From Ochromonas danica (Eukaryota > Sar > Chrysophyceae > Chromulinales > Chromulinaceae): a stretch of 64,000 nucleotides of DNA. The notes under the pieces are model-generated. The model saw only the letters and a list, made by a program, of their open reading frames with translations, ran no database searches and was not told the DNA's origin. The first letter of the stretch is position 1; every line of letters begins with the position of its first letter. This document shows positions 8,034-64,000 of this stretch, piece by piece. Where the stretch lies: contig VKHL01000035.1 of assembly GCA_015146655.1 (NCBI GenBank), positions 130,423 to 194,422 on the forward strand. The letters run 5' to 3'. The translations under genes were made by a program, and so were the position numbers.

Positions 8034-8103
<70 letters not shown>

Positions 8104-32841: not shown

Positions 32842-33882
32842 TTAAATTCCGAGCTGTTCTTTTAAGCTACCTTGCTGAACCATTTCCTTCACAATATCCA
32901 AACCTCCCACCAGCTGTCCCTTGACATAGAGCTGAGGATAAGTGGGCCAATCTGAGTACTCTTTCAACCCTTGACGAACTTCTTCATCTGTAAGAATGTT
33001 GAAAGAAGAATATTCCACTCCACTATCTTTCAAAATGGAGACAATTGTTGAACTAAATCCACAACGAGGAGCATCAGGAGTGCCTTTCATAAAGAGCATA
33101 ACCTGTGCTTGGTTAATGAGATCATGCAATCTCTCTTGGAGCGGCTTAACAGCAGCAGGAGACTGGGCTGCATTTGCAGCATCAATAACATGTTGAATAT
33201 CAAACTGATCAATAAGATTTCCTTGTTGAGCCATTTCCTTCACAATATCTAAACCTCCTACAAGCTGTCCCTTGACATAGAGCTGAGGATAAGTGGGCCA
33301 ATCTGAGTACTCTTTCAACCCTTGACGAACTTCTTCATCTGTTAAGATATCAAAAGAAGCAAAGGGAACATTACTTTGTTGCAACAATTCCACCATTTGA
33401 CGACTAAATCCACAGCGAGGTTGAGCAGGACTGCCTTTCATAAACAACATGACAGGGGCAGTGTAGATCAACTGCTCCAATCGACGATTTAAGACTTCTT
33501 TCTTCTTTTTCTTCTCGTCCTCTTCTGCATTATTGGTAAAACTAGAAACATTAGAGATCTCATTCAAATCTTTGACTAGCTTGGAGACTGTGGATGGTGT
33601 CGCTCCTTCAAACTTGGCGACAATCTTCGAACCAATGCAAGTGAAGAAAGTTGGGACCAGGGTCACACTCAGCTTCTCGCTTAGTTCAGGAACTCCTTCT
33701 GCTTCAATTGTGCGAAACTTGATTGTTGGATACTTTTCTTCAAGTGCTGCGTAGACACTTTGCATTTGACCGTCTCTTCTAGATGGTTCATGCCATTCTG
33801 CCCAAAAGAAAAGAACAAATTTCGTTTCTTTCTCATTTTGAAGACTAATATATTCTTGTAAACTTTTCAACTCAACTGGCAT
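32842..33882 (-). CDS. GRX3: Monothiol glutaredoxin 3 (PICOT): thioredoxin-like plus two CGFS glutaredoxin domains
   Basis: An intronless frame of 346 residues. Residues 1-100 are a thioredoxin-like domain whose active site reads WAEWHEPSRR, without the usual CxxC. Two glutaredoxin domains follow, each with PRCGFS (about residues 155 and 265), the Fe-S ligand cysteine of monothiol glutaredoxins, and each with WPTYPQLYVKGQLVGGLDIVKEM, the glutathione-binding half. Cytosolic GRX3 proteins pass [2Fe-2S] clusters together with BolA and regulate iron homeostasis. The second halves of the two domains are almost identical in DNA (see findings). It diverges from the aldehyde dehydrogenase gene, 394 bp away. 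Confidence 0.94.
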   Translation of the reverse strand: MPVELKSLQEYISLQNEKETKFVLFFWAEWHEPSRRDGQMQSVYAALEEKYPTIKFRTIEAEGVPELSEKLSVTLVPTFFTCIGSKIVAKFEGATPSTVSKLVKDLNEISNVSSFTNNAEEDEKKKKKEVLNRRLEQLIYTAPVMLFMKGSPAQPRCGFSRQMVELLQQSNVPFASFDILTDEEVRQGLKEYSDWPTYPQLYVKGQLVGGLDIVKEMAQQGNLIDQFDIQHVIDAANAAQSPAAVKPLQERLHDLINQAQVMLFMKGTPDAPRCGFSSTIVSILKDSGVEYSSFNILTDEEVRQGLKEYSDWPTYPQLYVKGQLVGGLDIVKEMVQQGSLKEQLGI

Positions 33883-46599: not shown

Positions 46600-49500
46600 A
46601 TGGAATTCCATCTGGTTGGTCTGTCAAATCCAAATGGAAATCCAATGATAACCTTATCCATGAACCAAACAATTCCTATCTATCCTCCATGCCAGGGAGA
46701 TATTGATGTACTCTATAGTATTTATAATGCAACCCATGGTGATCAATGGGAGTTTTTATATGGACAACCATGGAACTTCACGGAAACACATCCCAATCCA
46801 TGCAATGAGAATTGGCAAGGTATTTCTTGTGATGAAAGATGTACAGAAAGTGCTTGTTGGCAAGAAATTATTCATTTGGATATAGAATATATGAACTTGA
46901 TAGGCACTTTACCTTTAGAGATAGGCAACTTTTCTGCTTTGCGTGTATTAGTTATGGAAGACAATTTTGGACTCATTGGCACTATACCAGAGACGATAGG
47001 AAACATTTCAACATTGAATACTTTAGCGTTTTCTGATCTTTCTATAAGTGGAACTATTCCAGATTCGATTGGTAATTTACAAAACTTGACTCAATTATCA
47101 TTTACTTATCTGTTTACTTTATCATCAACGATACCAGAAACACTTTTCTTCTTACCTAATCTTACAGAGTGGCTGTTTGATGGCTTTTATATACATGGAA
47201 GTCTCTCCTCTTCTATCGGCAATTTAACCAAGTTGCAATCTCTTGGATTGTATGGTTTATATTTAACCGGAACACTACCAGAAGAACTAGCCAATATTCC
47301 ATCCCTGCAAAATGTATTAATTATTAGTAATCAATTCTCTGGCTCAATACCTTCTCAACTGATTTGCCAGAACAAGGAGTTGATCAAGCTTCAACTGTCT
47401 AATAATTATTTTACTGGGAGTATTCCCATAACTTCTGAATGTGTTGGTGAAATTTTGGAGAATTTGCAATTCGACGGGAATCTTCTCTCTGGGACTATTC
47501 CACCTGAACTATACTATTTTTCTAATTTAAATTTCCTCAATTTAGGGCATAACACCCTGTCAGGGACTCTTTCAACAAGTATTGGAAACCTCACCCAGTT
47601 GCAACGTTTTTATATAAATAATAATTACCTGAATGGCACCTTACCAACCAACTTCACCTCTTTATATCTTATAAATACCTTGAGCATGGGCTATAACTAT
47701 TTTACTGGAAGTTTGCCTGAGGAACTTACTCACATTCCTTCTATGCAAATGTTGATTGTGAGCTCGTGCTTCTTCACGGGTGTGATACCAGCTGGATTCG
47801 GTTCAAACGAGAATTTTGACTATTTGGATGTGAGTTATAATTTGTTAGAAGGAAGTATTCCTGAAGATTTATACTTTGGGGAATTGCTCACGGGTCTGCT
47901 GGTGTTCAACAATTTCCTCACAGGGACTGTTTCTCATAATATAGGCCATGCAACAGCTATGGCCTTTCTCGATATGAGCAATAACCTACTTTATGGTACC
48001 GTTCCTTCTGAGGTTGCTAACTTACATGGGTTGCTTAATCTTGGTTTGGGGTGGAATGCCTTTGTTGGCGAATTCAATGTGGACTTGTCTCAAATGCTCT
48101 CACTTGGCACGCTGCAACTTGAACATTGTCTTTTTACTGGAGAAGTTTCTCTGAATGCGCAGCAGAACCCGATACTACAATATATAAACATCAGCACGAA
48201 TTACTTTATAGGCAATGTGACAACCCTGTCTTATGCCTACTATGCCTTCGTTATCGATATTTCTTCAAATCTTCTCTCTGGTTCACTTCCAAGCATAGCC
48301 AAAATGTCCAGTATCACTATCTTTTTCGCTCAATCCAATCTTCTTGAGGGATCCATAACTCATTTCTTTGGTAAAACGGTGAATTCGCTCTTAACAAATG
48401 TGGATATTAGTGACAATCTCTTCACAGGCCCATTGCCAAGTCAATTTTTATTAGGATACAAGATATCTCTGGCTTCATTTGCTGCGGTTCAAAATTGTTT
48501 TACAGGTACAATGCCAGAGAGCTTTTGTAATCTCACATCGTTAGAGGTCTTAGCTTTGGATGGCCTGTCCACTGCCAAGTCATGTCGCAATCCCACTTTG
48601 TCGGATGTATTACCTCAAATTCATTCCTATGCTTTAAATAGCCAAGCTATTCATGGTGGCATTCCAAAGTGCTTGTTTGCAATGCCCTATTTAGAGACAT
48701 TACATCTCGCCGGTAATCGTTTGACTGGTAGTATTCCTGTGGAAGAGGAGAGTGATTTAGGCAGGTTTTTAAGTGATATCTCTTTATCACACAATGAACT
48801 AACTGGCACTCTTCCTCCACCATTGCAAGGAGGTAATCGTTGGAGTCGTTTAGATGTGAGTTACAACAAGATTAAAGGAGAGTTAAAAACGGATGATAGC
48901 GGAAACAGTAATACGGAAGGATTTCTTCCAAATGCTTTTATTTACTTAAATATCAATAGGTTTTCGGGACGTATCCCTGGGTTCTATTATGATATGACAG
49001 GGGGAAGTGGAAATGATTCTTCTGGAGGAGAGTTAGATATGTTGAGAGGCAATCTGTTTGCTTGTCCTGAACAGAGTCTGAAAAGTGATGTTCCTGAGGC
49101 TGATCCTTATCATTTACAATATGGATGTGGTTCTGATAATTTGAATGAAGCGCTTATGGCCTGGGTATGCCTTGTCTTCTGCACTTTCGTAGCGATTTAT
49201 TTAGGACTTGTTTGGATGAGACGGCAGATTAAACAAACGACAATGACAGGGAAAGCTGAAGTGACAGACAATGATGACGCAAATAGTACATCACAATCAA
49301 ATTTAGGATTGTCTTCAGAATCAACTCATAAAAGTAGATGTTGGAAGGCATTAGAACAAAGCTTTGTAATATCCGAGCTTTTACAATGGGAACGAGCCAT
49401 GTCTCAATGGTATTCACCAACGAAAGAGAGTCTTGACACTCATTCTACCGACTATAACCTGAAAGAATGGAAAGACGGTCTTGTTGTTTTGTTTGTTGGT

Positions 49501-51438
49501 GACGTTGTTGATGAGGACCTGAAGGATGATATCTTTTGGAAACAAATCTATGAAGCTGGATTGTTCATGAATAAGACACGACGTTTTGTGCTGTGGCTAG
49601 GGATTTATATCATTTGTGTGGGATGTCCCATCTATGGTTGCCTGACATACTTCTGTGGCTCCTATGATAATGAATATGCATGGACTATATCTGCTGCCTA
49701 TCTCTCAGGTGTGAGTGCTTCAGCAGTGTTATTGATCTTCTTTTTCTTTTTGTTCCTGCTATCTATTGTTCCTCTACACAAGTTAACGTCTGGCAGTGAT
49801 GAAAGGAGGGATAAAGAAGAAGAAGTTGGGTTGAGGTTAGACGATGAGAAAGTACAATCACCACAGCAAGAAGAATATAAAAGGGATGATGATAATAGTG
49901 AAATAGACAAAGTTAAGGAAGCATTTAGTCCTTTACACAGGCCAGATGAAGATCCGTTAACAGAAAGCTCTCAATCAACAATACTTTCAAAGTTAGAAAC
50001 TGGAATTCCCCCCTCAACAAGTAATGGAACCAGTGACAGCTCTTCTTTTTATTCAGATTGTCTCCCTCTTACTACATCCGCCATACCCACCCAACAATTG
50101 AGCGAAGAAGAGTTGATGAAGAGGAAGAAGTTAGATTGGAGAGTGATCCTGCTAATGAAGACAGCTGTTGCTGTTTTCAATATCTCCATTGTGTTGTTGG
50201 TTAATGGATCTTATGTCTATGTCTATCTTCAAGTTCAAAGATGGAGTGCAATGATGCTGTCTGTAGCGTTATCAGTCTTTAAAGTATTCTGGAGTATGGT
50301 TGTTCAATTTGCTGTTGTACACTATCTACAACCTTTACAACATCTCTCTTCTAAAACAGGATTAGATGAGAGTAATGTTCATTTTATGAGTAGTCTGATG
50401 TTATTCAATACGATAGTGGCACCTTGTCTTGCTACTCTGGTTGCTAGCTCTGATTGCTTCTATTATGTTTTTGCATCTCCTGCTGAGATCTCTGCTTCAT
50501 ATACTTTCGAACAATGTACTCGGTTTGATAATGTTGGTTGTATGTTGGAAGCGCCAACAACTCGTTCAATTGACTTTGCTCCACCATTCAGCTATTCTTT
50601 TCAATGTAGTTCCGCCATGTTGGTTGATTATGCTTATGTATTTGCTTATAAGTATGTATTGATTGGAGTACTTTATCCTTTGTTGGTAGTTGTAGTTGTT
50701 CTTTATGGAGATAGTAGGACGGAGAGGAAAGAGGAAAGTGGACGACGAAAGGCAGTGTCGGAAACATGGGTTGAAGTCTATTTGTTACCTCCTTTATGGA
50801 GAAGAGAAGATGAAGAGAATTCAGATATGAATGTAGTTTTCTCTTCTGGAGACTATATTATTCGTTTGTCTATGATGATAGGATGTTTACTGACTTATGG
50901 TTCTGTTTTACCTTATCTTTCTTTCTTGATCTGCTTCAGTATCTTGAGCAATACGGTGTTAACTCAGATTGGATGGTTGCGTTCCATTGAATACCATGCC
51001 ATTTTCACTTTTCTGAGAAGAGAAACCATGACACGATATGATAACCATGACAACACTAACAACAGTGATAATAGTCATAGTAGTAATAATGAAATGAAGA
51101 ATGATGACTGTAGTGAGGAAAAGGAAGTCAAAGGTCAAAAGATGAAAGATAAGATGAAAGAGAAAGTGGTTGAATTGGGTAAACAGTGTAGTAGGCTACG
51201 GCATGGCATGAAAGAAGCATCTGGACCTTTGTTAATCTTGTTGCCTCTATTCTATGCTTGCTATCTCTTTGACGTTGCAGGAGATGCCGCGGGAGCTTGG
51301 ATGGCATTATACTTCACAGTGATTTTCTGGAGTGCCTGTATTTTGACATCATTGGTCGTGGCACGATCAGAGATATCAATGTATATGAGGCATGTGTGGA
51401 AATTGTTGAGTAGTGGATGGTCTAAACGACAAGCATGA
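46600..51438 (+). CDS. LRR1: giant leucine-rich-repeat receptor-like membrane protein
   Basis: A single open frame of 1612 residues. An N-terminal cap (VLYSIYNATHGDQWEFL...PWNFTETHPNPCNENWQGISC) leads into plant-type 24-residue LRRs with LxGxIP, covering about residues 85-820. A Cys-bearing end follows (LRGNLFACPEQS...YGCGSDNLN). TM1 lies at about 846-870 (ALMAWVCLVFCTFVAIYLGL). A cytosolic linker of about 120 residues with basic and Ser-rich parts follows, then a polytopic domain of roughly eight to nine helices with a conserved Cys-rich extracellular loop (SSDCFYYVFASPAEISASYTFEQC...FSYSFQCSS). There is no kinase domain. A 2-nt difference from the duplicated tail at 57.6 kb causes an early stop after SKRQA. 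Its signal peptide may lie in an upstream exon. Confidence 0.85.
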   Translation: MEFHLVGLSNPNGNPMITLSMNQTIPIYPPCQGDIDVLYSIYNATHGDQWEFLYGQPWNFTETHPNPCNENWQGISCDERCTESACWQEIIHLDIEYMNLIGTLPLEIGNFSALRVLVMEDNFGLIGTIPETIGNISTLNTLAFSDLSISGTIPDSIGNLQNLTQLSFTYLFTLSSTIPETLFFLPNLTEWLFDGFYIHGSLSSSIGNLTKLQSLGLYGLYLTGTLPEELANIPSLQNVLIISNQFSGSIPSQLICQNKELIKLQLSNNYFTGSIPITSECVGEILENLQFDGNLLSGTIPPELYYFSNLNFLNLGHNTLSGTLSTSIGNLTQLQRFYINNNYLNGTLPTNFTSLYLINTLSMGYNYFTGSLPEELTHIPSMQMLIVSSCFFTGVIPAGFGSNENFDYLDVSYNLLEGSIPEDLYFGELLTGLLVFNNFLTGTVSHNIGHATAMAFLDMSNNLLYGTVPSEVANLHGLLNLGLGWNAFVGEFNVDLSQMLSLGTLQLEHCLFTGEVSLNAQQNPILQYINISTNYFIGNVTTLSYAYYAFVIDISSNLLSGSLPSIAKMSSITIFFAQSNLLEGSITHFFGKTVNSLLTNVDISDNLFTGPLPSQFLLGYKISLASFAAVQNCFTGTMPESFCNLTSLEVLALDGLSTAKSCRNPTLSDVLPQIHSYALNSQAIHGGIPKCLFAMPYLETLHLAGNRLTGSIPVEEESDLGRFLSDISLSHNELTGTLPPPLQGGNRWSRLDVSYNKIKGELKTDDSGNSNTEGFLPNAFIYLNINRFSGRIPGFYYDMTGGSGNDSSGGELDMLRGNLFACPEQSLKSDVPEADPYHLQYGCGSDNLNEALMAWVCLVFCTFVAIYLGLVWMRRQIKQTTMTGKAEVTDNDDANSTSQSNLGLSSESTHKSRCWKALEQSFVISELLQWERAMSQWYSPTKESLDTHSTDYNLKEWKDGLVVLFVGDVVDEDLKDDIFWKQIYEAGLFMNKTRRFVLWLGIYIICVGCPIYGCLTYFCGSYDNEYAWTISAAYLSGVSASAVLLIFFFFLFLLSIVPLHKLTSGSDERRDKEEEVGLRLDDEKVQSPQQEEYKRDDDNSEIDKVKEAFSPLHRPDEDPLTESSQSTILSKLETGIPPSTSNGTSDSSSFYSDCLPLTTSAIPTQQLSEEELMKRKKLDWRVILLMKTAVAVFNISIVLLVNGSYVYVYLQVQRWSAMMLSVALSVFKVFWSMVVQFAVVHYLQPLQHLSSKTGLDESNVHFMSSLMLFNTIVAPCLATLVASSDCFYYVFASPAEISASYTFEQCTRFDNVGCMLEAPTTRSIDFAPPFSYSFQCSSAMLVDYAYVFAYKYVLIGVLYPLLVVVVVLYGDSRTERKEESGRRKAVSETWVEVYLLPPLWRREDEENSDMNVVFSSGDYIIRLSMMIGCLLTYGSVLPYLSFLICFSILSNTVLTQIGWLRSIEYHAIFTFLRRETMTRYDNHDNTNNSDNSHSSNNEMKNDDCSEEKEVKGQKMKDKMKEKVVELGKQCSRLRHGMKEASGPLLILLPLFYACYLFDVAGDAAGAWMALYFTVIFWSACILTSLVVARSEISMYMRHVWKLLSSGWSKRQA

Positions 51439-51998
51439 ACAAGTGAGAAAGACGACAATTGTTCAAACGAGCACTGATGTTGATAAGAAGACAATAGTGG
51501 AGATGGTGGAGGAGAAGACAGTGGTATGAAGCAAAAGGCTTCTAACCTCAACTGCAGTGATCTATGAGATACTTTATGATGATCATATATTTTTTGTAAA
51601 TACACGACGGACGTCTATGTAGACTATGAAAATAATTTCCAGCACGCTACCCTGTTTTGCAATACCTATCTATATGAAATAGCTCGATATTGTATACGTA
51701 TTGTATTTAGTGCTAATAAGGTGCAAACAACCTCTCTATCCTTAATTGCTAGGTTTTGTTGTTTAGTTGGTTATTAATGATTGTATAAAACAGCTAATGA
51801 GCTCCAAGCTGACCAAACATTAGTTAAGTTTTAGTGACTTTAGCATCTAAACAAGCCTGAATTTTGGCACTAATCGCTTCACGATTGGCTTTAATCCATC
51901 GAATACGCTGCAGATAATTCTCAGCACGACTTGTAATGCTGGTGATACTGTCTTATTGGGCGATGGCACGACCCACAAAATAGACCACATTCGACAAG
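51386..51998. repeat. Copy A of a roughly 0.6-kb segmental duplication (LRR tail + kinase 3' end)
   Basis: Near-identical to 57620-58236: the last codons of an LRR gene, its 3' flank, and the 3' end of the APH kinase gene in antisense. Only a handful of differences are visible over the block. Similarity stops abruptly after GACAAGATA. Confidence 0.9.
51830..51998 (-). pseudogene. Truncated copy of the APH kinase gene (3' end only)
   Basis: Matches the last 55 or so codons of the intact kinase gene at 58057-58236, including the C-terminal KIQACLDAKVTKT. One substitution makes a TAA in the frame and the upstream 85% of the gene is absent, so it is a duplication relic. The stretch 51999-52278 beyond it is unrelated to the kinase gene and shows no feature other than the 5' flank of LRR2. 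Confidence 0.88.
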
Positions 51999-52278
51999 AT
52001 ATGAACAGCCATTTTCCATTTTCGCTGATCCACAATGACTTCCTTTGAAAATTGCCTAATCGCCATCAAACAAGACTTAAACTAACGATCATTAACTTCA
52101 GTCATTTGTTTTAACAAGCGCTTTGAGTCTGAGTTCGTCTTGTTTTCAAAAAGAAAGAGACTTTGATAAATCTCGATGTTTTGTCTTCCGAAAGACCAAC
52201 ACTACAGGGTTGAATCTGCTCTGGGGTTGAATCTGTCATGTCATACGATGATAGAGTGATCAGCAGAATTGGAGAAGG

Positions 52279-55200
52279 ATGAGGCGACAACGACAAATCA
52301 GGTTTTCTAGACACCTTCTGGGAAGATTTCTTCTCGTCTTCTTCCTTTCTTGTTCCCTTCATTTCGTTCATTCATGGGGAAATCTCATCAGTCACCCAAA
52401 TCCTTTGCGCCACAAAAATTCACGCCTTCTTTCCTCTGACCAGCTAAAAGAGCAAGAAATCCTCCTCACTGTCACAGGAAATCAGAGCAATCCTGCTCCT
52501 CTCCCAGCAGATGAGTTGGGGGCCTTGCATGACCTCTATAATGCAACTATTGGTGAGTATTGGATCTGGACGGGAGTTCCATGGAATTTCACGGAATCGA
52601 ATCCTGACCCTTGCAGTGAGGGTTGGGAAGGAGTCACTTGCTTTATAGTGTGTGATAACAACAGCAATTGTGAAGAGCATGTCAACAGTATTATTCTATC
52701 GAACAACAACATGAGTGGAAGTTTGCCTGACTCTCTGCAACAGCTGCAACAACTGCGTTATTTGTCCATCTCAAGTAATTTTAAGCTCACGGGATCTATC
52801 CCATCTTCCTTGTCAAACCTCTCTTATTTATCTTCTTTGATCTTGGGAAGCAATGGTTTAAGTGGTTCTATTCCCAGCAGTCTCACAAACGTCAAATCCT
52901 TGGTCTTCTTGGATTTATCTGAGAATGATCTGACAGGCATCTTGCCAACGAACCTCTCCCAACTGACAGGGCTGAGCTATTTCTATATATATTCGAATCA
53001 TCTCTCTGGCTCGATGCCAGGTGATATTGGCGCCTGGTCTCAGTTATCCTATTTGTACGCTTATTCGAACTTGATTTCGGGTGAATTTCCAGAGAGTATT
53101 GCCAATTGCTCACTTCTGAACACCTTTACTGTTTACAATAACTTTATGACTGGTCATCTGCCGCCATCAGTTAGCAAGCTTAAGTCTTTGACCTTTTTAG
53201 ATGCTTCATATAACATGCTCAGTGGACCGATACCTGATGATGTGGGTACAGCATCAGCTATGCTTTGTATGAGCTTGGAAACGAACTTCTTCACGGGTAC
53301 TCTTCCGTCTTCGATTGGCCAATTGAGCGCATTAACATACTTCAGTGTATTTGACAATATACTATGGGGATCGCTTCCCTCCACAATCTACGATCTATCC
53401 AGCATCACAGAAGTTTTGCTCTCCTCAAATACTTTTTCGGGCAGTTTGAGTAGTGCGATAGGTCAATGGACTGCAATGACTTATCTGGATCTGAGCTCTA
53501 ACATATTTACAGGCAATCTTCCTGGTGCGCTTGGTCAGTTGGAGAAGTTGGAGTTCTTTAGTGTAAGCTCGAATGTGTTATCTGGGACTCTTCCAGCAGA
53601 ACTGGGGAACTGGAAGATGTTGGAGGAGCTATACTTGAGCGTGAATTTGTTCGAAGGTACAATTCCTGCTTTTATCGGGAACATGAGTGCATTGAGCTAT
53701 TTATATTGGGAAACCTGCTTACTGACAGGTGCATTACCTTCTGAAATAGCTTCCCTGGAGAATTTACTTGTGTTGAATGTCATTAGCAACTTTCTATCAG
53801 GAACAATACCTGAGTTTATGACCAATATATCCACCTTAGTTGCACTGGCTCTCGGCAATAACCACTTCTATGGTAGTCTTCCAGCGCACTTCGGAAGATT
53901 GACGAAGCTGCAATATTTAACGATCGCTTACAATGGCTTCAGTGGGAGTCTTCCTGCTTCTTTCTCCACACTAAGTAATCTCCAAGCTGCTTCTCTGGCT
54001 TGTAACTTCTTGTCAGGCTCTTTATCTTCCCTTTCCATCCCGTCAAGCCATCTTGACTATTTGAACATCTCTAATAACTACTTCACTGGAGAGACATCGC
54101 CACTGCTATCTTTACAGAATATCTCGATCCTGGACATTTCCTCGAATGGATTGACGGGATCGTTTCAAGTGCATGAGAAAATGCCTAAGCTGGTTTGGTT
54201 GTTCTTACGCGGAAATGAGTTATCAGGTTCCTTGTCAGGGACTTTCACTTCTCTTTCCACTCCTTCTTTGGTTTATTTGGACCTGTCGAACAATCGCTTC
54301 AGCGGTGCATTTCCAGCCTCCGACTTCGCACAATTGACCAAACTGAACACACTGGCAGCAGTAGAAAATTGCTTCACAGGAACGATTTCATCCGACCTTT
54401 GCAAAGCCAGTAAGTTGCAAGTGGCAGCATTGGATGGTCTATCGGCTGCTCCGAGTTGTCGCAGGGCAACGCTCTCTTCGTCTGATGGTACGCTTTCATC
54501 TTGGGTGCCTTCCTACGTCATGGGGAAACATGCAGTTCATGGCAGTTTGCCTTCGTGCTTATTCCAGGAGTTGAATGTGTTAGTTACCCTGCACTTGTCC
54601 GGGAATAGTTTGAAAGGCACGATTCCTGACTTGGCTAAGCATAGTTTGCTTTCTGATCTCTCCCTATCTCACAACGAACTATCGGGAACAGTGCCTGATT
54701 CTGTGCAGAGCAACTCGTGGATCAACCTTGATCTGAGTTTCAACAAGCTCACAGGCATATTGAAGAACAGTATGTCATCCACTGATTGGGCCAATGCTTC
54801 GATCGCTCTGGACATCAATCGTCTTTCTGGCAAGATCCCTAGTGATTACTATCATATAGGGGATGTGGATATGCTGAGAGGCAATATCTTCCAATGTCCG
54901 GACGATGGCAATGATGAAGAGAGTCTGCCTCCCAGTGATCCTTATAACAACCAATATGGCTGTGGTTCGGTGACGTTGAACACGGCTCTGATAATCTGGG
55001 GATCGGTAGTAGTATGTTTGGGAGTGGTGTGTGTTTGCATTGCAGGGTCGATGAAGATGCGCAGTAGTAGACAACGTGAGGATGTTAAGAGTAAGTATAG
55101 CAAGGACATTGCGTGTTGTGGGAAGAGGAAGCAAAATGAGGAGAAAGAAGTATCAGAGGATGTGGGAGAAGGCGAGGACTTGGAGAAGAGAGGTGAGGGA

Positions 55201-57435
55201 GCGACTTCAAAGGATGAAGAGAAAGGGAAATCATCAGCACAGTCAGCGACATGTTGGGATCGGTTCTTGGACAAGGTGGAGATGATGAGGAAGCAGATGG
55301 AGGAGTGGCAGTCTGTCTATGGTGGCGAGAACGGTGAGGTCAAGGAAGCTCTTCGCAGACAAGAAGACACGTATCGCGGAGAAGGCAATCATGTTGACGA
55401 GGCTCATGCCGATTCTCATGCTGATGCTGAAAGGGAGGCTCAGTCAATTAATAATCCCGTAGCTGTCCTTCGAAGTCAAATCGTGATGGTGGGTCAGTTG
55501 TCACGATTTGTTCGACAGTTTAGTAGTGTAGCGATGTTGTTGATCGTATTGCTGGGCGTTCCTCTCTATACCACGCTATCTTATTTCTATGGTAGCTACT
55601 ACTATCAATATGGATGGACGCCGTCAGCAGCATTTCTGTCAGGAGAATCTGCTGCGATAGCGTTGTTGATTCTGTTTCTTGGTATAGCAGCCAGTCTAGC
55701 TTTCTTTATCACATCTCGTGGTTTTTCTTCTTTCTATCACGCTGACGATCAACAGAATGGCCGCCACGTTTCTATAAAGTGGTGGTGGTATGGATGGTCT
55801 GTAGCTTGTGAGAGCAGCGAGAGTTGGCGCTATTTTCTTCGTGTGTTGGTGATCGTAGCGGGAAACACCGCAGTGGTGATGGTTGTAAATGCTGTATATG
55901 TCTATTTCTGCTTGCAAATATCTGTCTTGCAGTCATTCTTCCTGTCTGTGGCCATGACAGGCTTCAAACTAGTGTGGTCTCGCATTTTGTTCTTGGTTCT
56001 TTCTCATTGGATTGCGCGAGTAGGCGAGCGAGGAATAACGAAAGAGGTATCTCACCCTGGCCTCTCTTGTACTGACACAGTTGCTGTAACCAGTGGTGAT
56101 GGAGTGAAGAATAATCTGGCCCGAACGACGAATCGATGGAATTCTGCAACTATTACTATTTACAGCTGTTTGATGTTGTTCAATACAATCGTTGCACCTT
56201 GTTTAGCCACCTTGTTTATTAGTTCTGATTGTTTCTACTATGTCTTCGTATCTCCACCTTATGTCACCGTATCGTATTCATATCCGGTATGTATCACCAT
56301 TGTTGAGAACGCATGTATGAGTACTGCCAGTGTTATCAAAACGTCAGATTTCCAGCCGCCCTTTAGCTATGGGTATCAATGCAGTTCTGCCTTGCTCCAA
56401 GAGTATGGTTATGTGTTCGTGTATAAGTATCTGTTGTTGGGAGTACTGCATCCACTTGTGGTTCTGTTGTTGACCTTTTATCATGATCAGCAGACATCCT
56501 CTGATGAGAGTGAGAGTGAGAATGGGAATGGGAATGATGATGGCGCTGAGAAGAAGAAGAAGGAGGAAGGACCTATGGTGGAAAGGGGAGTTGTTGTTAG
56601 CCGTGAGTTTATTTCTCCTCTGCACATTCGAAGTGGAGATGTTGCGATAGATGCGAATACTACATCTCCCAAGCCGAACGCAATTAGATCTATCAGTTTG
56701 TCATCTACTACAAGTTTGTTGCTTCCTCCTCTTTGGAGGAAGAACATCTCACATGGGATAATGAGCTATTTTCTGGACGAAACGAATTTCGAGCATGTTT
56801 TCTCTGCTGCAGAGTATTCTGTTCGTCTTTCGATGATGATAGGGACTCTTCTAACATATGGCATCGTGTTACCGTATTTGGCTGTTCTGGTTTGCGTGGC
56901 AATAGTGAGCAATACCTATCTGACACAATGGGCGTTGGCGAGGTTTTACCAAATGGCGTGGAAAGCAAGCGAGAACAATCACCATGACCGTTTATCTTCG
57001 TCACTTCGCCTGCATTCCAATGACAGCAAGATGAGCGCTACTGTCCCTGAGTCGGAGTGGAATGCCGATGGCTCAAGGGAAGCCGTGAGACATGTGAAGG
57101 TGGTTTCTTTTTCGTCATCTTGCTCTTCTGTGAGGACCGACAATCAAGCCTTGGTCGTGCAGCACGTTAGCGATGAATGTGAGCAACTGCCAGCAGCCTT
57201 GTTGGTGGCAGCACGACCTCTGTCTGTGTTAATGCTGTTCTTCTTGTCTTGTTTCCTGTTTGATATCGCTGGTGATAAAGGAGGTGCTTGGATTGGATTG
57301 TATTTCGTGTTGGTAATGTGTTTGGTGCCTTTGTTGGCAGTGATTGTGCATCGATTATGGCTGGGTTGGATGGAGAGGCGCAGACTGATGCATGAGGAGG
57401 TTGTGAGAAATCAAGCATCAAGAGAAGGTACTTGA
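52279..57435 (+). CDS. LRR2: giant leucine-rich-repeat receptor-like membrane protein
   Basis: A single open frame of 1718 residues. Signal peptide at about 12-33 (LLGRFLLVFFLSCSLHFVHS). The N-cap is LHDLYNATIGEYWIWTGVPWNFTESNPDPCSEGWEGVTC. LRRs of the LSGSIPSSL type cover about residues 140-860, with occasional irregular repeats. A Cys-containing end (LRGNIFQCPDD...YGCGS) comes before TM1 at about 900-925. The linker (930-1075) is Lys/Glu-rich with a coiled-coil-like part. The polytopic C-terminal domain (about 1085-1690) has eight to nine helices and the loop SSDCFYYVFVSPPYVTVSYSYPVC...FSYGYQCSS shared with LRR1. No kinase or TIR domain is seen. It looks like a surface sensor or adhesin. 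Base use is visibly less AT-rich than in LRR1. Confidence 0.9.
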   Translation: MRRQRQIRFSRHLLGRFLLVFFLSCSLHFVHSWGNLISHPNPLRHKNSRLLSSDQLKEQEILLTVTGNQSNPAPLPADELGALHDLYNATIGEYWIWTGVPWNFTESNPDPCSEGWEGVTCFIVCDNNSNCEEHVNSIILSNNNMSGSLPDSLQQLQQLRYLSISSNFKLTGSIPSSLSNLSYLSSLILGSNGLSGSIPSSLTNVKSLVFLDLSENDLTGILPTNLSQLTGLSYFYIYSNHLSGSMPGDIGAWSQLSYLYAYSNLISGEFPESIANCSLLNTFTVYNNFMTGHLPPSVSKLKSLTFLDASYNMLSGPIPDDVGTASAMLCMSLETNFFTGTLPSSIGQLSALTYFSVFDNILWGSLPSTIYDLSSITEVLLSSNTFSGSLSSAIGQWTAMTYLDLSSNIFTGNLPGALGQLEKLEFFSVSSNVLSGTLPAELGNWKMLEELYLSVNLFEGTIPAFIGNMSALSYLYWETCLLTGALPSEIASLENLLVLNVISNFLSGTIPEFMTNISTLVALALGNNHFYGSLPAHFGRLTKLQYLTIAYNGFSGSLPASFSTLSNLQAASLACNFLSGSLSSLSIPSSHLDYLNISNNYFTGETSPLLSLQNISILDISSNGLTGSFQVHEKMPKLVWLFLRGNELSGSLSGTFTSLSTPSLVYLDLSNNRFSGAFPASDFAQLTKLNTLAAVENCFTGTISSDLCKASKLQVAALDGLSAAPSCRRATLSSSDGTLSSWVPSYVMGKHAVHGSLPSCLFQELNVLVTLHLSGNSLKGTIPDLAKHSLLSDLSLSHNELSGTVPDSVQSNSWINLDLSFNKLTGILKNSMSSTDWANASIALDINRLSGKIPSDYYHIGDVDMLRGNIFQCPDDGNDEESLPPSDPYNNQYGCGSVTLNTALIIWGSVVVCLGVVCVCIAGSMKMRSSRQREDVKSKYSKDIACCGKRKQNEEKEVSEDVGEGEDLEKRGEGATSKDEEKGKSSAQSATCWDRFLDKVEMMRKQMEEWQSVYGGENGEVKEALRRQEDTYRGEGNHVDEAHADSHADAEREAQSINNPVAVLRSQIVMVGQLSRFVRQFSSVAMLLIVLLGVPLYTTLSYFYGSYYYQYGWTPSAAFLSGESAAIALLILFLGIAASLAFFITSRGFSSFYHADDQQNGRHVSIKWWWYGWSVACESSESWRYFLRVLVIVAGNTAVVMVVNAVYVYFCLQISVLQSFFLSVAMTGFKLVWSRILFLVLSHWIARVGERGITKEVSHPGLSCTDTVAVTSGDGVKNNLARTTNRWNSATITIYSCLMLFNTIVAPCLATLFISSDCFYYVFVSPPYVTVSYSYPVCITIVENACMSTASVIKTSDFQPPFSYGYQCSSALLQEYGYVFVYKYLLLGVLHPLVVLLLTFYHDQQTSSDESESENGNGNDDGAEKKKKEEGPMVERGVVVSREFISPLHIRSGDVAIDANTTSPKPNAIRSISLSSTTSLLLPPLWRKNISHGIMSYFLDETNFEHVFSAAEYSVRLSMMIGTLLTYGIVLPYLAVLVCVAIVSNTYLTQWALARFYQMAWKASENNHHDRLSSSLRLHSNDSKMSATVPESEWNADGSREAVRHVKVVSFSSSCSSVRTDNQALVVQHVSDECEQLPAALLVAARPLSVLMLFFLSCFLFDIAGDKGGAWIGLYFVLVMCLVPLLAVIVHRLWLGWMERRRLMHEEVVRNQASREGT

Positions 57436-57619
57436 GAAGCATCAAGCATGCTTCCCCTCCAAGGACGTCAGTCTTCTACCTTAACGGACCATTAAGGAAT
57501 ATTGATTTATAACTTTACCGCTCAACCTGTATCGCAGGCCGAATCTATAATTGGGCATGGGGTAGTCATTCTCCTCGGGAGCAAGCAATGGTATCTGCTC
57601 GGAGTTCGGATTTATATGA
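57436..57619. other. Spacer after LRR2
   Basis: 184 bp between the LRR2 stop and the orphan LRR tail. It has no similarity to the corresponding LRR1 3' coding region apart from its last bases, where a GGAGTTCGGATTTATATGAAG segment begins to resemble LRR1. It probably spans a deletion or recombination junction. Confidence 0.5.
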
Positions 57620-57762
57620 AGTATGTGTGGAATTTGCTGAGTAGTGGATGGTCTAAACGACAAGCAAATGAACAAGTGAGAAAGACGACAATGGTTCAAA
57701 CGAGCACTGATGTTGATAAGAAGACAATAGTGGAGATGGTGGAGGAGAAGACAGTGGTATGA
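57597..57762 (+). pseudogene. Orphan C-terminal tail of an LRR1-type gene
   Basis: Reads IYMKYVWNLLSSGWSKRQANEQVRKTT... to a TGA at 57760-57762. It matches the LRR1 C-terminus (MYMRHVWKLLSSGWSKRQA) and continues 27 residues beyond the LRR1 stop. The rest of the gene is absent here, and LRR2, just upstream, ends with an unrelated tail. It is the relic of another LRR gene removed by recombination. Confidence 0.8.
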
Positions 57763-58236
57763 AGCAAAAGGCTTCTAACCTCAACTGCAGTGATCTATGA
57801 GATACTTTATGATGATCATATATTTTTTGTAAATACACGACGGACGTCTATGTAGACTATGAAAATAATTTCCAGCACGCTACCCTGTTTTGCAATACCT
57901 ATCTATATGAAATAGCTCGATATTGTATACGTATTGTATTTAGTGCTAATAAGGTGCAAACAACCTCTCTATCCTTAATTGCTAGGTTTTGTTGTTTAGT
58001 TGGTTATTAATGATTGTATAAAACAGCTAATGAGCTCCAAGCTGACCAAACATTAGTTAAGTTTTAGTGACTTTAGCATCTAAACAAGCCTGAATTTTGG
58101 CACTAATCGCTTCACGATTGGCTTTAATCCATCGAATACGCTGCAGATAAATCTCAGCACGACTTGTAATGCTGGTGATACTGTCTTCTTGGGCGATGGC
58201 ACGGCCCACAAAATAGACCACATTCGACAAGATACG
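57620..58236. repeat. Copy B of the 0.6-kb segmental duplication
   Basis: Partner of 51386-51998. Here it joins an orphan LRR tail to the intact kinase gene, so this arrangement is closer to the source. Confidence 0.9.
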
Positions 58237-59091
58237 AAGATTAATCAAATCTGGAATTACAGAGACTTCCAATATATTCAATTCGGCATGTTCCATGTAT
58301 CCATCGATAAAATCATTGAAATAGCCTAAGGCACCTTTCTCTCCGGCATATTTACTGAGGCAAATGGCCAACTCCATCGCCCTCCAATCTAATGCACAAA
58401 ATTCAAAATCTAACAATCCACTAATGGCCCCTTCCTGATCCAATACAAGAACATTATCGTAATGAAGATCACCGTGAATTAATTGCTGTGGAAGTTTGAG
58501 AGAAAGTAACTCATGTGAGAGTTTCTCAATGGCCTCCAACTCTTGAATTAGTTCATTCATTGTTGGGCGAACACCATCAAAGTCAGATGATGCAACTCTT
58601 TCCATAAACTTCTCTCTTGTAACTGCATGATGCACTTTATAGATATCATAGTATGGAGGGTTGGGCGATGTCATGTCCAAAGAGACCTTTGCCATGGCTG
58701 TGGTCAGCTCTCCGGAGGCGCGGCCGATTTCTTTTACCAGGGTCAGCTTAGGCAACTTGCCTGGTATAATCTCAAAGAGAGAAGCTTCTGCTCCGGTTGA
58801 TAATAAGACATGTGGGGCAGCACTTTCTAAACTTGGAACAGTTGTCGGAATTTTAAAAGACAGATTCATCTGGCTGAGCTGTTGTAAGATAGCATGCTCA
58901 AATCGTACACGATAAGAATCATTTCCATTGTTATATACGCGTAAAATATACTGATGACCATTGTCAGTCTCAATATAACGAACTACATTATTCACTCCTC
59001 CTGTGGTTGGAGTGAAATGATAAGTATTTGCCACCAAAAACTTGGAAGCTGCTTCTTCAAGCACCTGCGAGCTAAACTCAGTTGAAAACAT
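58057..59091 (-). CDS. APH/choline-kinase-fold phosphotransferase (homoserine kinase type II-like)
   Basis: An intronless frame of 344 residues from ATG 59091. The N-lobe has GGVNNVVRYIETDNGHQYILRVYNN, an ATP-site beta sheet with the lysine replaced by Arg in ILRVY. The catalytic loop is LIHGDLHYDNVLV (HxDxxxxN) and the metal-binding motif is LLDFEFCALDW, as in the PF01636 family of aminoglycoside, homoserine and N-acetylhexosamine kinases. The substrate is unknown; the best guess is a small amino or sugar metabolite. It lacks introns and signal sequence, and is most similar in style to bacterial proteins, so an old transfer is possible. It lies antisense inside the LRR array and its 3' end was copied to 51.8 kb. 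Confidence 0.85.
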   Translation of the reverse strand: MFSTEFSSQVLEEAASKFLVANTYHFTPTTGGVNNVVRYIETDNGHQYILRVYNNGNDSYRVRFEHAILQQLSQMNLSFKIPTTVPSLESAAPHVLLSTGAEASLFEIIPGKLPKLTLVKEIGRASGELTTAMAKVSLDMTSPNPPYYDIYKVHHAVTREKFMERVASSDFDGVRPTMNELIQELEAIEKLSHELLSLKLPQQLIHGDLHYDNVLVLDQEGAISGLLDFEFCALDWRAMELAICLSKYAGEKGALGYFNDFIDGYMEHAELNILEVSVIPDLINLRILSNVVYFVGRAIAQEDSITSITSRAEIYLQRIRWIKANREAISAKIQACLDAKVTKT

Positions 59092-59612
59092 CTAAACAAG
59101 AGAGAAAATTTGATGATGACATAAGGTAGGGGTCAAAAGGTGTTATTGGCATACGTCAGCAGCAAAGCACCCTTTGCTCACCTGAAGATTTCTCTGGAAA
59201 GAGAAAGAAAAGGACCTTCTATTCAATGAGTGAGATAGAAAAGAATGCTTTCGAAAAGCAGTGCAATGAGAGCAACAAATAAAACAAAGCCAAGTTAGAA
59301 GACTTCCCCAAGAAGTCTTTGATAATGTTCTCATTCTCATTCGTTGGCTTTTCTGTCACATTTTAACCCACCAATCCCAAAATTTCCGAAATTACGAAAC
59401 CCAATGAAACCACCCAAAACAACAAAATTCCGAAAACCAGAAATTGCGAAATTGCGAAACTACGAAGTTTATGGTTTCCCAGCACATCAAATCAAATCAA
59501 ATCAATCAACTCAAATCAAGTCCAAGTAAATAACGAAATCCTGAAAACCAGTGATAACAGAGGTGTGAATGAAATACTACTGTATCAACGGCAAGAATCG
59601 ATTGTAAAAGCG
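59092..59612. other. 5' region between the kinase gene and LRR3, with CGAAA-type repeats
   Basis: 521 bp. At about 59383-59468 the word (G/C)CGAAA(A/T) in forms such as CCGAAATTACGAAAC and GCGAAATTGCGAAAC occurs at least seven times; at 59485-59520 ATCAA pentamers follow. This stretch is open in one frame but reads as Lys/Pro/Asn low complexity and is not called a gene. Confidence 0.5.
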
Positions 59613-62600
59613 ATGACGATCTGGCTTGCAAGATTTCTTCTCATCTTCTTCCTTTCTTGTTCCCTTCATCTCATCCATTCATGGGGAAATCTCACCAGTC
59701 ACCCAAATCCTTTGCACCACCAGAATACACACCTTCTTCCCTCTGGCCAGCTAAAAGAGCAAGAAGTCCTCCTCACTGTGACAGGAAATCAGAGCAATCC
59801 TGCTCCTCTCCCAGCGGATGAGTTGGGGGCCTTACATGACCTCTACAGTACAACTCTCGGTGAGTATTGGAACTGGACGGGAGTTCCATGGAATTTCACG
59901 GAATCGAATCCTGACCCTTGCAGTGAGGGTTGGGAAGGAGTGATGTGCAATGCTGTGTGCCATAATTCTAGCAATACCATGGAGAGTTGTGAAGAGCATG
60001 TAGTTGCCATCTTTCTATCAAATAACAACATGAGTGGAAGTTTGCCCGACTCTTTGCAACAGCTGCAACAACTGCGTTATTTGTCCATCTCAAGTAATTT
60101 TAAGCTCACGGGGTCTATCCCATCTTCCTTGTCAAGCCTCTCATACTTGATTTATTTGGTCTTAGACAGCAATGGTTTAAGTGGTTCTATTCCCAGCAGT
60201 CTCACAAACGTCAAATCCTTGGTCTTCTTGGATTTATCTGAGAATGATCTGACAGGCATCTTGCCAACGAACCTCTCCCAACTGACAGGGCTGAGCTATT
60301 TCTATATATATTCGAATCATCTCTCTGGCTCGATGCCAGGTGATATTGGCGCCTGGTCTCAGTTATCCTATTTGTACGCTTATTCGAACTTGATTTCGGG
60401 TGAATTTCCAGAGAGTATTGCCAATTGCTCACTTCTGAACACCTTTACTGTTTACAATAACTTTATGACTGGTCATCTGCCGCCATCAGTTAGCAAGCTT
60501 AAGTCTTTGACCTTTTTAGATGCTTCATATAACATGCTCAGTGGACCGATACCTGATGATGTGGGTACAGCATCAGCTATGCTTTGTATGAGCTTGGAAA
60601 CGAACTTCTTCACGGGTACTCTTCCGTCTTCGATTGGCCAATTGAGCGCATTAACATACTTCAGTGTATTTGACAATATACTATGGGGATCGCTTCCCTC
60701 CACAATCTACGATCTATCCAGTATCGTAGAAGTTTCGCTCTCGACGAATACTTTTTCAGGCAGTTTGAGTAGTGCGATAGGTCAATGGACTGCAATGGCT
60801 TATCTGGATATCAGCGAAAACTATTTTGCAGGCAGTCTTCCTGGTGCGCTTGGTCAGTTGGAGAAGTTGGAAGTTTTGAGTGGAAGCTTAAATGTCCTAT
60901 CTGGGGCTCTTCCAGCAGAACTGGGGAATTGCAAGAGTATAGTGGAGGTGTATCTGAGTGGAAATTGGTTCGATGGCACTATTCCCGCTTCATTTGGCAA
61001 TTTGACTGTATTGAAGTATTTGTATTTGGACGATAGCTTTCTCACAGGTGTATTACCTTCGGAAATGGCTTCACTCCAGAATCTGAACATACTGGCTGTG
61101 GAAAATAACATATTGTCAGGAACAATACCTGATTGTCTCTCCAATATATCTTCTTTACTTGTAATGGGACTAGGGATAAATAACTTTCATGGTAGTCTTC
61201 CTGCGCACTTCGGAAGATTGACGAAGTTGCAATATTTAACGGTCTCTTTCAGTGGCTTCAGTGGGAGTCTTCCTGCTTCTTTCTCCACACTAAGTAATCT
61301 CCAAGCTGCTTCTCTGGCTTGTAACTTCTTGTCAGGCTCTTTATCTTCCCTTTCCATCCCGTCAAGCCATCTTGACTATTTGAACATCTCTAATAACTAC
61401 TTCACTGGAGAGACATCGCCACTGCTATCTTTACAGAATATCTCGATCCTGGACATTTCCTCGAATGGATTGACGGGATCGTTTCAAGTGCATGAGAAAA
61501 TGCCTAAGCTGGTTTGGTTGTTCTTACGCGGAAATGAGTTATCAGGTTCCTTGTCAGGGACTTTCACTTCTCTTTCCACTCCTTCTTTGGTTTATTTGGA
61601 CCTGTCGAACAATCGCTTCAGCGGTGCATTTCCAGCCTCCGACTTCGCACAATTGACCAAACTGAACACACTGGCAGCAGTAGAAAATTGCTTCACAGGA
61701 ACGATTTCATCCGACCTTTGCAAAGCCAGTAAGTTGCAAGTGGCAGCATTGGATGGTCTATCGGCTGCTCCGAGTTGTCGCAGGGCAACGCTCTCTTCGT
61801 CTGATGGTACGCTTTCATCTTGGGTGCCTTCCTACGTCATGGGGAAACATGCAGTTCATGGCAGTTTGCCTTCGTGCTTATTCCAGGAGTTGAATGTGTT
61901 AGTTACCCTGCACTTGTCCGGGAATAGTTTGAAAGGCACGATTCCTGACTTGGCTAAGCATAGTTTGCTTTCTGATCTCTCCCTATCTCACAACGAACTA
62001 TCGGGAACAGTGCCTGATTCTGTGCAGAGCAACTCGTGGATCAACCTTGATCTGAGTTTCAACAAGCTCACAGGCATATTGAAGAACAGTATGTCATCCA
62101 CTGATTGGGCCAATGCTTCGATCGCTCTGGACATCAATCGTCTTTCTGGCAAGATCCCTAGTGATTACTATCATATAGGGGATGTGGATATGCTGAGAGG
62201 CAATATCTTCCAATGTCCGGACGATGGCAATGATGAAGAGAGTCTGCCTCCCAGTGATCCTTATAACAACCAATATGGCTGTGGTTCGGTGACGTTGAAC
62301 ACGGCTCTGATAATCTGGGGATCGGTAGTAGTATGTTTGGGAGTGGTGTGTGTTTGCATTGCAGGGTCGATGAAGATGCGCAGTAGTAGACAACGTGAGG
62401 ATGTTAAGAGTAAGTATAGCAAGGACATTGCGTGTTGTGGGAAGAGGAAGCAAAATGAGGAGAAAGAAGTATCAGAGGATGTGGGAGAAGGCGAGGACTT
62501 GGAGAAGAGAGGTGAGGGAGCGACTTCAAAGGATGAAGAGAAAGGGAAATCATCAGCACAGTCAGCGACATGTTGGGATCGGTTCTTGGACAAGGTGGAG

Positions 62601-64000
62601 ATGATGAGGAAGCAGATGGAGGAGTGGCAGTCTGTCTATGGTGGCGAGAACGACGAGGTCAAAGACGCTCTTCGCAGACAAGACAACACGTATCGCGGAG
62701 AAGATAGCGATGATGAGTATGATGAAGCTGACGCAGACGTTACGTTTCAAGAAGACTCGAATCGTGAAGATGATAGCGATGATGAATATTATGAAGCTGA
62801 TATCAAGAGTTTAGAAGGCGCATATCTTAGAGAGTGCAGTCATGTAGACGAGACTCATGCCGATTCTCGTGTCCAAGCCGATAGGGAGCCTCACTCTATT
62901 AATAATCCCGTAGCTGTCCTTCGAAGTCAAATCGTGATGGTGGGTCAGTTGTCACGATTTGTTCGACAGTTTAGTAGTGTAGCGATGTTGTTGATCGTAT
63001 TGCTGGGCGTTCCTCTCTATACCACGCTATCTTATTTCTATGGTAGCTACTACTATCAATATGGATGGACGCCGTCAGCAGCATTTCTGTCAGGAGAATC
63101 TGCTGCGATAGCGTTGTTGATTCTGTTTCTTGGTATAGCAGCCAGTCTAGCTTTCTTTATCACATCTCGTGGTTTTTCTTCTTTCTATCACGCTGACGAT
63201 CAACAGAATGGCCGCCACGTTTCTATAAAGTGGTGGTGGTATGGATGGTCTGTAGCTTGTGAGAGCAGCGAGAGTTGGCGCTATTTTCTTCGTGTGTTGG
63301 TGATCGTAGCGGGAAACACCGCAGTGGTGATGGTTGTAAATGCTGTATATGTCTATTTCTGCTTGCAAATATCTGTCTTGCAGTCATTCTTCCTGTCTGT
63401 GGCCATGACAGGCTTCAAACTAGTGTGGTCTCGCATTTTGTTCTTGGTTCTTTCTCATTGGATTGCGCGAGTAGGCGAGCGAGGAATAACGAAAGAGGTA
63501 TCTCACCCTGGCCTCTCTTGTACTGACACAGTTGCTGTAACCAGTGGTGATGGAGTGAAGAATAATCTGGCCCGAACGACGAATCGATGGAATTCTGCAA
63601 CTATTACTATTTACAGCTGTTTGATGTTGTTCAATACAATCGTTGCACCTTGTTTAGCCACCTTGTTTATTAGTTCTGATTGTTTCTACTATGTCTTCGT
63701 ATCTCCACCTTATGTCACCGTATCGTATTCATATCCGGTATGTATCACCATTGTTGAGAACGCATGTATGAGTACTGCCAGTGTTATCAAAACGTCAGAT
63801 TTCCAGCCGCCCTTTAGCTATGGGTATCAATGCAGTTCTGCCTTGCTCCAAGAGTATGGCTATGTGTTCGTGTATAAGTATCTGTTGTTGGGAGTACTGC
63901 ATCCACTTGTCGTTCTGTTGTTGACCTTTTATCATGATCAGCAGATGTCCTCTGATGAGAGTGAGAATATTGATGGTGCTGAGAAGAAGGAGGAAGGATC
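59613..64000 (+). CDS. LRR3: giant LRR membrane protein, 3' end beyond the window
   Basis: The frame is open from ATG 59613 to the window end (at least 1462 codons). It starts with a signal peptide (MTIWLARFLLIFFLSCSLHLIHS), then follows LRR2 domain by domain: N-cap, LRRs, Cys-bearing end, TM1 at about 894-918, linker, and the first part of the polytopic domain. Offset to LRR2 is 7319 bp through the LRRs and 7451 bp after a net 132-bp in-frame insertion in the linker. Blocks 60161-60721, 61255-62640 and 62895-63940 are nearly identical to LRR2, while the start, 60722-61254, 62650-62890 and the last 60 bp differ clearly. The linker insertion encodes two related acidic motifs, EDSDDEYDEAD and EDDSDDEYYEAD. 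Confidence 0.88.
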   Translation, partial: MTIWLARFLLIFFLSCSLHLIHSWGNLTSHPNPLHHQNTHLLPSGQLKEQEVLLTVTGNQSNPAPLPADELGALHDLYSTTLGEYWNWTGVPWNFTESNPDPCSEGWEGVMCNAVCHNSSNTMESCEEHVVAIFLSNNNMSGSLPDSLQQLQQLRYLSISSNFKLTGSIPSSLSSLSYLIYLVLDSNGLSGSIPSSLTNVKSLVFLDLSENDLTGILPTNLSQLTGLSYFYIYSNHLSGSMPGDIGAWSQLSYLYAYSNLISGEFPESIANCSLLNTFTVYNNFMTGHLPPSVSKLKSLTFLDASYNMLSGPIPDDVGTASAMLCMSLETNFFTGTLPSSIGQLSALTYFSVFDNILWGSLPSTIYDLSSIVEVSLSTNTFSGSLSSAIGQWTAMAYLDISENYFAGSLPGALGQLEKLEVLSGSLNVLSGALPAELGNCKSIVEVYLSGNWFDGTIPASFGNLTVLKYLYLDDSFLTGVLPSEMASLQNLNILAVENNILSGTIPDCLSNISSLLVMGLGINNFHGSLPAHFGRLTKLQYLTVSFSGFSGSLPASFSTLSNLQAASLACNFLSGSLSSLSIPSSHLDYLNISNNYFTGETSPLLSLQNISILDISSNGLTGSFQVHEKMPKLVWLFLRGNELSGSLSGTFTSLSTPSLVYLDLSNNRFSGAFPASDFAQLTKLNTLAAVENCFTGTISSDLCKASKLQVAALDGLSAAPSCRRATLSSSDGTLSSWVPSYVMGKHAVHGSLPSCLFQELNVLVTLHLSGNSLKGTIPDLAKHSLLSDLSLSHNELSGTVPDSVQSNSWINLDLSFNKLTGILKNSMSSTDWANASIALDINRLSGKIPSDYYHIGDVDMLRGNIFQCPDDGNDEESLPPSDPYNNQYGCGSVTLNTALIIWGSVVVCLGVVCVCIAGSMKMRSSRQREDVKSKYSKDIACCGKRKQNEEKEVSEDVGEGEDLEKRGEGATSKDEEKGKSSAQSATCWDRFLDKVEMMRKQMEEWQSVYGGENDEVKDALRRQDNTYRGEDSDDEYDEADADVTFQEDSNREDDSDDEYYEADIKSLEGAYLRECSHVDETHADSRVQADREPHSINNPVAVLRSQIVMVGQLSRFVRQFSSVAMLLIVLLGVPLYTTLSYFYGSYYYQYGWTPSAAFLSGESAAIALLILFLGIAASLAFFITSRGFSSFYHADDQQNGRHVSIKWWWYGWSVACESSESWRYFLRVLVIVAGNTAVVMVVNAVYVYFCLQISVLQSFFLSVAMTGFKLVWSRILFLVLSHWIARVGERGITKEVSHPGLSCTDTVAVTSGDGVKNNLARTTNRWNSATITIYSCLMLFNTIVAPCLATLFISSDCFYYVFVSPPYVTVSYSYPVCITIVENACMSTASVIKTSDFQPPFSYGYQCSSALLQEYGYVFVYKYLLLGVLHPLVVLLLTFYHDQQMSSDESENIDGAEKKEEG

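Follow-up and report, generated by a model that had tools for sequence, protein, structure and literature searches.

Clustered leucine-rich repeat (LRR) genes of plants that exchange sequence include the Cf genes and, reportedly, RPP8, and RHCE/RHD is said to be a further candidate for paralogues that keep a divergence peak under gene conversion. The variable lymphocyte receptors of jawless vertebrates change somatically in single cells, with donor LRR cassettes lying near an incomplete gene. Human red/green opsins maintain a peak of divergence under gene conversion (PMC3924837), GOT1 paralogues of Tigriopus retain high-divergence regions despite conversion (PMC3728101), and the SH3-CNL genes of coffee, which are clustered plant resistance (R) genes, show sequence exchange and selection at exposed residues (PMC3113787). 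Two further sources describe LRR exon shuffling in brown-algal LRR-ROCO genes (PMC11378527) and, for Tetrahymena, LRR genes with 90-bp exons for which ectopic recombination was proposed, with 1,874 LRR genes in T. thermophila (PMC6564038). Here we describe three large LRR genes (LRR1, LRR2 and LRR3) in tandem on the plus strand of a 64,000-nucleotide window of Ochromonas danica contig VKHL01000035.1, two of which, LRR2 and LRR3, alternate between exactly identical and strongly divergent blocks. All coordinates are positions within this window. Among the matches listed from the literature on microalgae and on assembly artefacts, there was no closer case.

Identical and divergent blocks of LRR2 and LRR3

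LRR2 and LRR3 are close paralogues. Block limits and mismatch counts (Table 1) were obtained by change-point segmentation of their alignment, which covers LRR3 only up to position 64000, where the window truncates it, and which is uncertain over the last few codons before that end. Three exact runs (C1, C2 and C3) total 2916 bp and are separated by variable blocks (V1, V2 and V3). C3 taken together with its end (55447-56515) has 4 mismatches in 1069 sites; these start at 63860, all four are reached by 63966, and beyond that point the match weakens. No alignment between LRR2 and LRR3 was found upstream of V1. Both indels in the shared coding part, of 12 bp in V1 and 132 bp in V3, are in frame, and the reading frames stay open through every block boundary seen.

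The mosaic is genuine in this sequence. When the 221 mismatches were shuffled over the 4226 ungapped sites (2000 shuffles), the longest identical run averaged 110 and never exceeded 234, against observed runs of 554, 1400 and 962 bp; at third codon positions alone, identical runs of 483, 320 and 184 codons compare with at most 165 in the shuffles. Synonymous differences number 0 over about 670 sites in the identical blocks, and 26/115, 48/122 and 5/23 in V1, V2 and V3, respectively (V1 versus V2, p 0.0075). Because those ~670 synonymous sites are unchanged, protein constraint is excluded as the cause of the identity; unless they are a product of the assembly, the identical tracts must share a recent origin. 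A preliminary description of this locus had reported near-identity extending to synonymous sites, intervening blocks that differ in frame by substitutions and indels, and a divergence too uneven for a single duplication followed by even change; the present analysis bears out all three, along with the sharp breaks in identity and synonymous divergence (dS) that it anticipated along the pair. Its block coordinates agree with ours to within about 15 bp, except that it ended the third block at 63940, whereas mismatches appear from 63860.

V2 corresponds to LRR2 residues 375-552, about eight 24-residue repeats, with differences densest at ~53757-53874. Its divergence is uneven along its length, as overlapping tracts could leave it: of 5000 shuffles each, only 3 by site and 20 by codon were equally uneven. 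Repeat position 8 is changed in 8/8 repeats, position 2 in 6/8 and position 10 in 5/7, and positions 11, 13, 15, 16 and 21 in 0/7. The standard set of exposed xxLxLxx positions is defined without position 10. With that set, and treating residues as independent in this and the following tests, amino-acid changes fall at 23/40 exposed positions versus 35/137 elsewhere (p 0.00025), or versus 25/77 when only other non-core positions are considered (p 0.011). Including position 10 sharpens the contrast to 28/47 versus 30/130 (p 9.8e-6), for a class chosen after viewing the alignment.

A second repeat pair in the cluster shows the same form, an identical core with divergent flanks. This 0.63-kb repeat, 98.1% identical, lies behind LRR1 and behind LRR2, and its 457-bp core (51461-51917 in copy 1), mostly non-coding flank, is the same in both copies; the preceding 82 bp contain 6 mismatches plus a 2-base gap, and the following 88 bp contain 4 mismatches. 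In translation, the part of the repeat that follows the LRR2 stop resembles the LRR1 C-terminus; in LRR1 itself, the 2-base gap at 51434 relative to the copy at 57666-57667, either a real frameshift or a sequence error, terminates the frame 31 codons sooner. The repeat also carries the end of an APH-family kinase gene. The minus-strand fragment behind LRR1 (51827-52000) holds the last 58 codons only, and its protein is 96.6% identical to the product of the uninterrupted gene between LRR2 and LRR3; the latter protein is homoserine-kinase-like, scores below NCBIfam cut-offs and had no phage match at 1e-5. The LRR cluster has been rearranged, as the LRR1-type tail and partial kinase gene in the repeat show, and unequal crossing-over or similar events probably joined unrelated flanks.

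Table 1 Blocks of the LRR2/LRR3 alignment and features of the LRR cluster
Feature	Position (blocks: in LRR2)	Position in LRR3	Strand	Description
V1	52324-52848	59631-60167	+	61/525 mismatches (11.6%), 12-bp indel, dS 0.27
C1	52849-53402	60168-60721	+	0/554 mismatches; nearly eight LRRs
V2	53403-53933	60722-61252	+	121/531 mismatches (22.8%), dS 0.56
C2	53934-55333	61253-62652	+	0/1400 mismatches; remaining LRRs, first membrane span, linker
V3	55334-55446	62653-62897	+	19/113 mismatches (16.8%), dS 0.26, 132-bp insertion in LRR3
C3	55447-56408	62898-63859	+	Identical over 962 bp; portion of membrane domain
LRR1	46600-51438		+	Open reading frame of 1612 amino acids; diverged paralogue; LRR ectodomain and ~10 hydrophobic spans
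LRR2	52279-57435		+	1718 amino acids, complete; signal-peptide-like start; ~9 hydrophobic spans behind the LRRs
LRR3	59613-64000		+	Start probably at 59613, first ATG of frame 59565-63998; signal-peptide-like start; open at window end
Cluster repeat, copy 1	51379-52005		+	LRR1 3' end, 3' flank, last 58 codons of minus-strand kinase gene
Cluster repeat, copy 2	57610-58238		+	LRR1-C-terminus-like piece behind LRR2 stop, 3' flank, kinase gene end
APH-family kinase gene	58057-59091		-	One open frame between LRR2 and LRR3

Probable gene conversion and competing explanations

LRR2 and LRR3 are probably an old tandem pair that was recently homogenised in several tracts by ectopic (interlocus) gene conversion; we infer conversion as the process, together with its recency and direction. 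The pair shows high-identity tracts, synonymous sites included, with divergent borders, the pattern by which interlocus conversion is recognised. In such a history the two genes, whose eukaryotic products combine an LRR ectodomain with several membrane spans, would be old tandem duplicates, and several tracts of one would recently have been overwritten by the other, whether in a single patchy event or in a small number of recent events; one patchy event may suffice because all tracts have zero differences. Older divergence would remain as three islands: V1, covering the start and N-terminal LRR cap; V2, covering about eight central LRRs; and V3, in a linker. The V2 island may survive by chance, or its persistence could be due in part to selection for distinct binding faces, as the peak-of-divergence model proposes. 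That the LRR face is extracellular allows a guess that the receptors recognise other cells or their products.

The visible exchange homogenises, and the divergent blocks are either unconverted parts or come from an unseen donor. The proposal of the preliminary description that conversion homogenises some modules while LRR modules vary thus stands for the homogenised tracts and for the preference of V2 changes for exposed positions, but V2 has a ratio of nonsynonymous to synonymous divergence (dN/dS) below 1. Its further suggestion of conversion-driven, cassette-based diversification is not supported, as the visible tracts make the copies more alike. The window yielded no donor cassette either, and the sequence does not show a diversification system; conversion would diversify only if the variable blocks had been imported. 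The LRR2 gene is complete, the LRR3 frame stays open as far as the window reaches, and no cassette-type layout, with donor cassettes near an incomplete gene, was found within the window. Searches of the window by tblastn with LRR1 and LRR2 (E <= 1e-3) detected no LRR fragments other than those at 46-64 kb. Comparison of the window with itself by blastn gave no sign that LRRs had been copied from another part of the gene; within the cluster it matched only LRR2 with LRR3, the copies of the 3'-flank repeat, and a 53-bp repeat lying in the V3 insertion. No relative was found by tblastn among viral contigs (288 pattern matches) or genome contigs (LRR2, 8 pattern matches), which says little because these collections are viral and prokaryotic. 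It is very improbable that we see here a framework of multi-span LRR receptors, in a eukaryote outside plants and animals, that is repeatedly homogenised around a binding patch, about eight repeats long, which is itself swapped or held distinct, so that recognition would vary from strain to strain or even from cell to cell.

Several observations weigh against recent conversion of an old pair. Divergence is nearly two-valued, with 3373 bp in four tracts without a difference and several per cent elsewhere; conversions of mixed age should also leave tracts at 0.5-3%, and only the short end of C3 is intermediate, with 4 mismatches in its last 107 bp. Such a distribution fits one recent event or an assembly effect equally. 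The segmentation gave no further split of V2. The GC content at third codon positions (GC3) is 0.36-0.52 by block in LRR2/LRR3, which is high beside 0.34 in LRR1 and 0.12-0.41 in 15 other open reading frames; because the identical blocks do not clearly exceed the variable ones, GC3 fails to single out the tracts, and it was dropped as a sign of biased conversion. As for selection, none of the three LRR position classes in V2 has a dN/dS as high as 1 (0.40, 0.14 and 0.49), and dS is highest at exposed positions too (1.17 versus 0.60 and 0.31), so positive selection on V2 is not demonstrated, and an old LRR pair without special selection could give the V2 pattern.

The main rival, which we consider unlikely, is an assembly effect, in which the true copies would differ slightly in C1-C3 (for example, by 0.5-2%) and were given a single consensus by the assembler or polisher, or in which the variable blocks were mis-joined, making the boundaries look absolute. 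Identical tracts of this kind exceed short-read length. Four long tracts with exactly zero differences, and the lack in the cluster of any exact match (of those >= 60 bp) sized between 69 and 457 bp, are what such an effect would give, whereas the absence of any N from the window, the differing sequences upstream of LRR2 and LRR3 and the frames open across every boundary seen speak against it; even partial collapse would leave a strong contrast between the C and V blocks. A single locus assembled twice was likewise considered and judged unlikely: the sequences upstream of V1 do not align, so LRR2 and LRR3 are not simply one locus shown twice.

More doubtful still is that one of the two genes is a young copy of the other, with V1, V2 and V3 imported from remoter paralogues beyond the window, a course in which conversion would truly diversify. 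The identical blocks do look equally young, with zero differences, and the unequal synonymous divergence of V1 and V2 is as expected from different donors. This history, however, would require several replacements, given the non-homologous upstream sequence and the weakening of the match past 63966; no donor was found within the window, and divergence is not flat along V2. An old duplication under ordinary, uneven constraint and with no exchange is hardly credible and was rejected together with even divergence: linkers do often evolve faster than membrane parts and LRR cores, but neither the long runs of third-position identity and the unchanged synonymous sites beside blocks with dS 0.26-0.56, nor the unchanged 457 bp of mostly non-coding flank, can be had in that way.

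Gene models and surroundings

LRR1, the diverged paralogue, is 31% identical to LRR2 (BLASTP), has an open reading frame without a signal-like start, and ends inside the repeat common to the LRR2 3' flank. The ectodomains of all three proteins are of the plant-type LRR class (Pfam), with at least 18 LRRs in LRR2 by a simple pattern; the best PDB sequence matches of LRR2 are FLS2, GSO1 and MIK2, with E-values inflated by the repeats. At E <= 0.001, Pfam gave only LRR families in LRR1-LRR3 (LRR3 being incomplete) and no ROC-COR domains, and neither an NB-ARC nor a protein kinase domain was found by Pfam in LRR1-LRR3 or, when E-values up to 10 were allowed, in the LRR1 and LRR2 C-terminal regions. 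Hydrophobic spans of LRR1 and LRR2 were counted by a simple hydropathy scan. They belong to a multi-span membrane domain with conserved cysteines (49141-51438 in LRR1, 54976-57432 in LRR2), to which no named family could be assigned with Pfam at E up to 10 or with PDB sequences; its top Pfam score is to DUF4834 (E 0.001, LRR1 only, below the family cut-off), and an AlphaFold2 model built from three sequences is too poor for use (mean predicted local distance difference test score, 37.8). The V3 insertion of LRR3 encodes an acidic stretch, and a diverged direct repeat (53 bp, 83%) at 62679-62731 and 62748-62800 spans it.

The window looks eukaryotic. Other proteins encoded in it include BTB, START/EDR2_C, signal-peptide peptidase and TPR-MYND proteins and a TerC protein whose start is signal-like, a hint of an alga that has complex plastids. 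The reading frames for TerC and for a queuosine-salvage-like protein appear to resume in other frames, and these genes are apparently interrupted. A TG dinucleotide microsatellite (8036-8102) lies inside an intron-like stretch of the queuosine-salvage-like gene. Elsewhere, one gene carries two glutaredoxin domains (32870-33102 and 33221-33453) whose DNA is 82% identical with an 80-bp exact match, and the neighbouring frames 30579-31319 and 32222-32713 match the LON substrate-binding domain, the second below the Pfam cut-off.

Relation to known systems

Variable lymphocyte receptors resemble LRR2 and LRR3 only in the general idea of LRR-block exchange, and differ in that no incomplete gene or donor cassette was found within the window. 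Brown-algal LRR-ROCO genes also encode candidate LRR receptors whose LRR units vary, in organisms that are neither plants nor animals; there, each LRR is its own exon, shuffled and alternatively spliced, whereas LRR2 and LRR3 are each one open frame in which a run of about eight repeats differs. Tetrahymena, likewise a single-celled eukaryote, has an LRR family for which ectopic recombination has been proposed, but the LRRs described here are not in 90-bp exons, and three genes are in view rather than 1,874.

Clustered plant R genes share with LRR1-LRR3 the tandem LRR genes, exchange between paralogues and variation at exposed LRR residues. Unlike them, LRR1-LRR3 have no NB-ARC or kinase domain detectable by Pfam, their multi-span part belongs to an unnamed family, positive selection is not shown in LRR2/LRR3 and no resistance function is known. 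Opsin- and GOT1-type paralogues have, like LRR2 and LRR3, near-identical tracts around a shorter divergent segment; here, in contrast, the tracts have exactly zero differences, the segment is the LRR face, and the comparison is of a single sequence. If the tracts are real, LRR2 and LRR3 would illustrate compactly how a framework is homogenised while one patch of the likely binding face stays divergent, and would indicate the residues that matter for recognition. The mosaic, real in this sequence, is of a well-known kind, that of plant R-gene clusters and opsin-type divergence peaks, here in receptors with an unnamed membrane domain.

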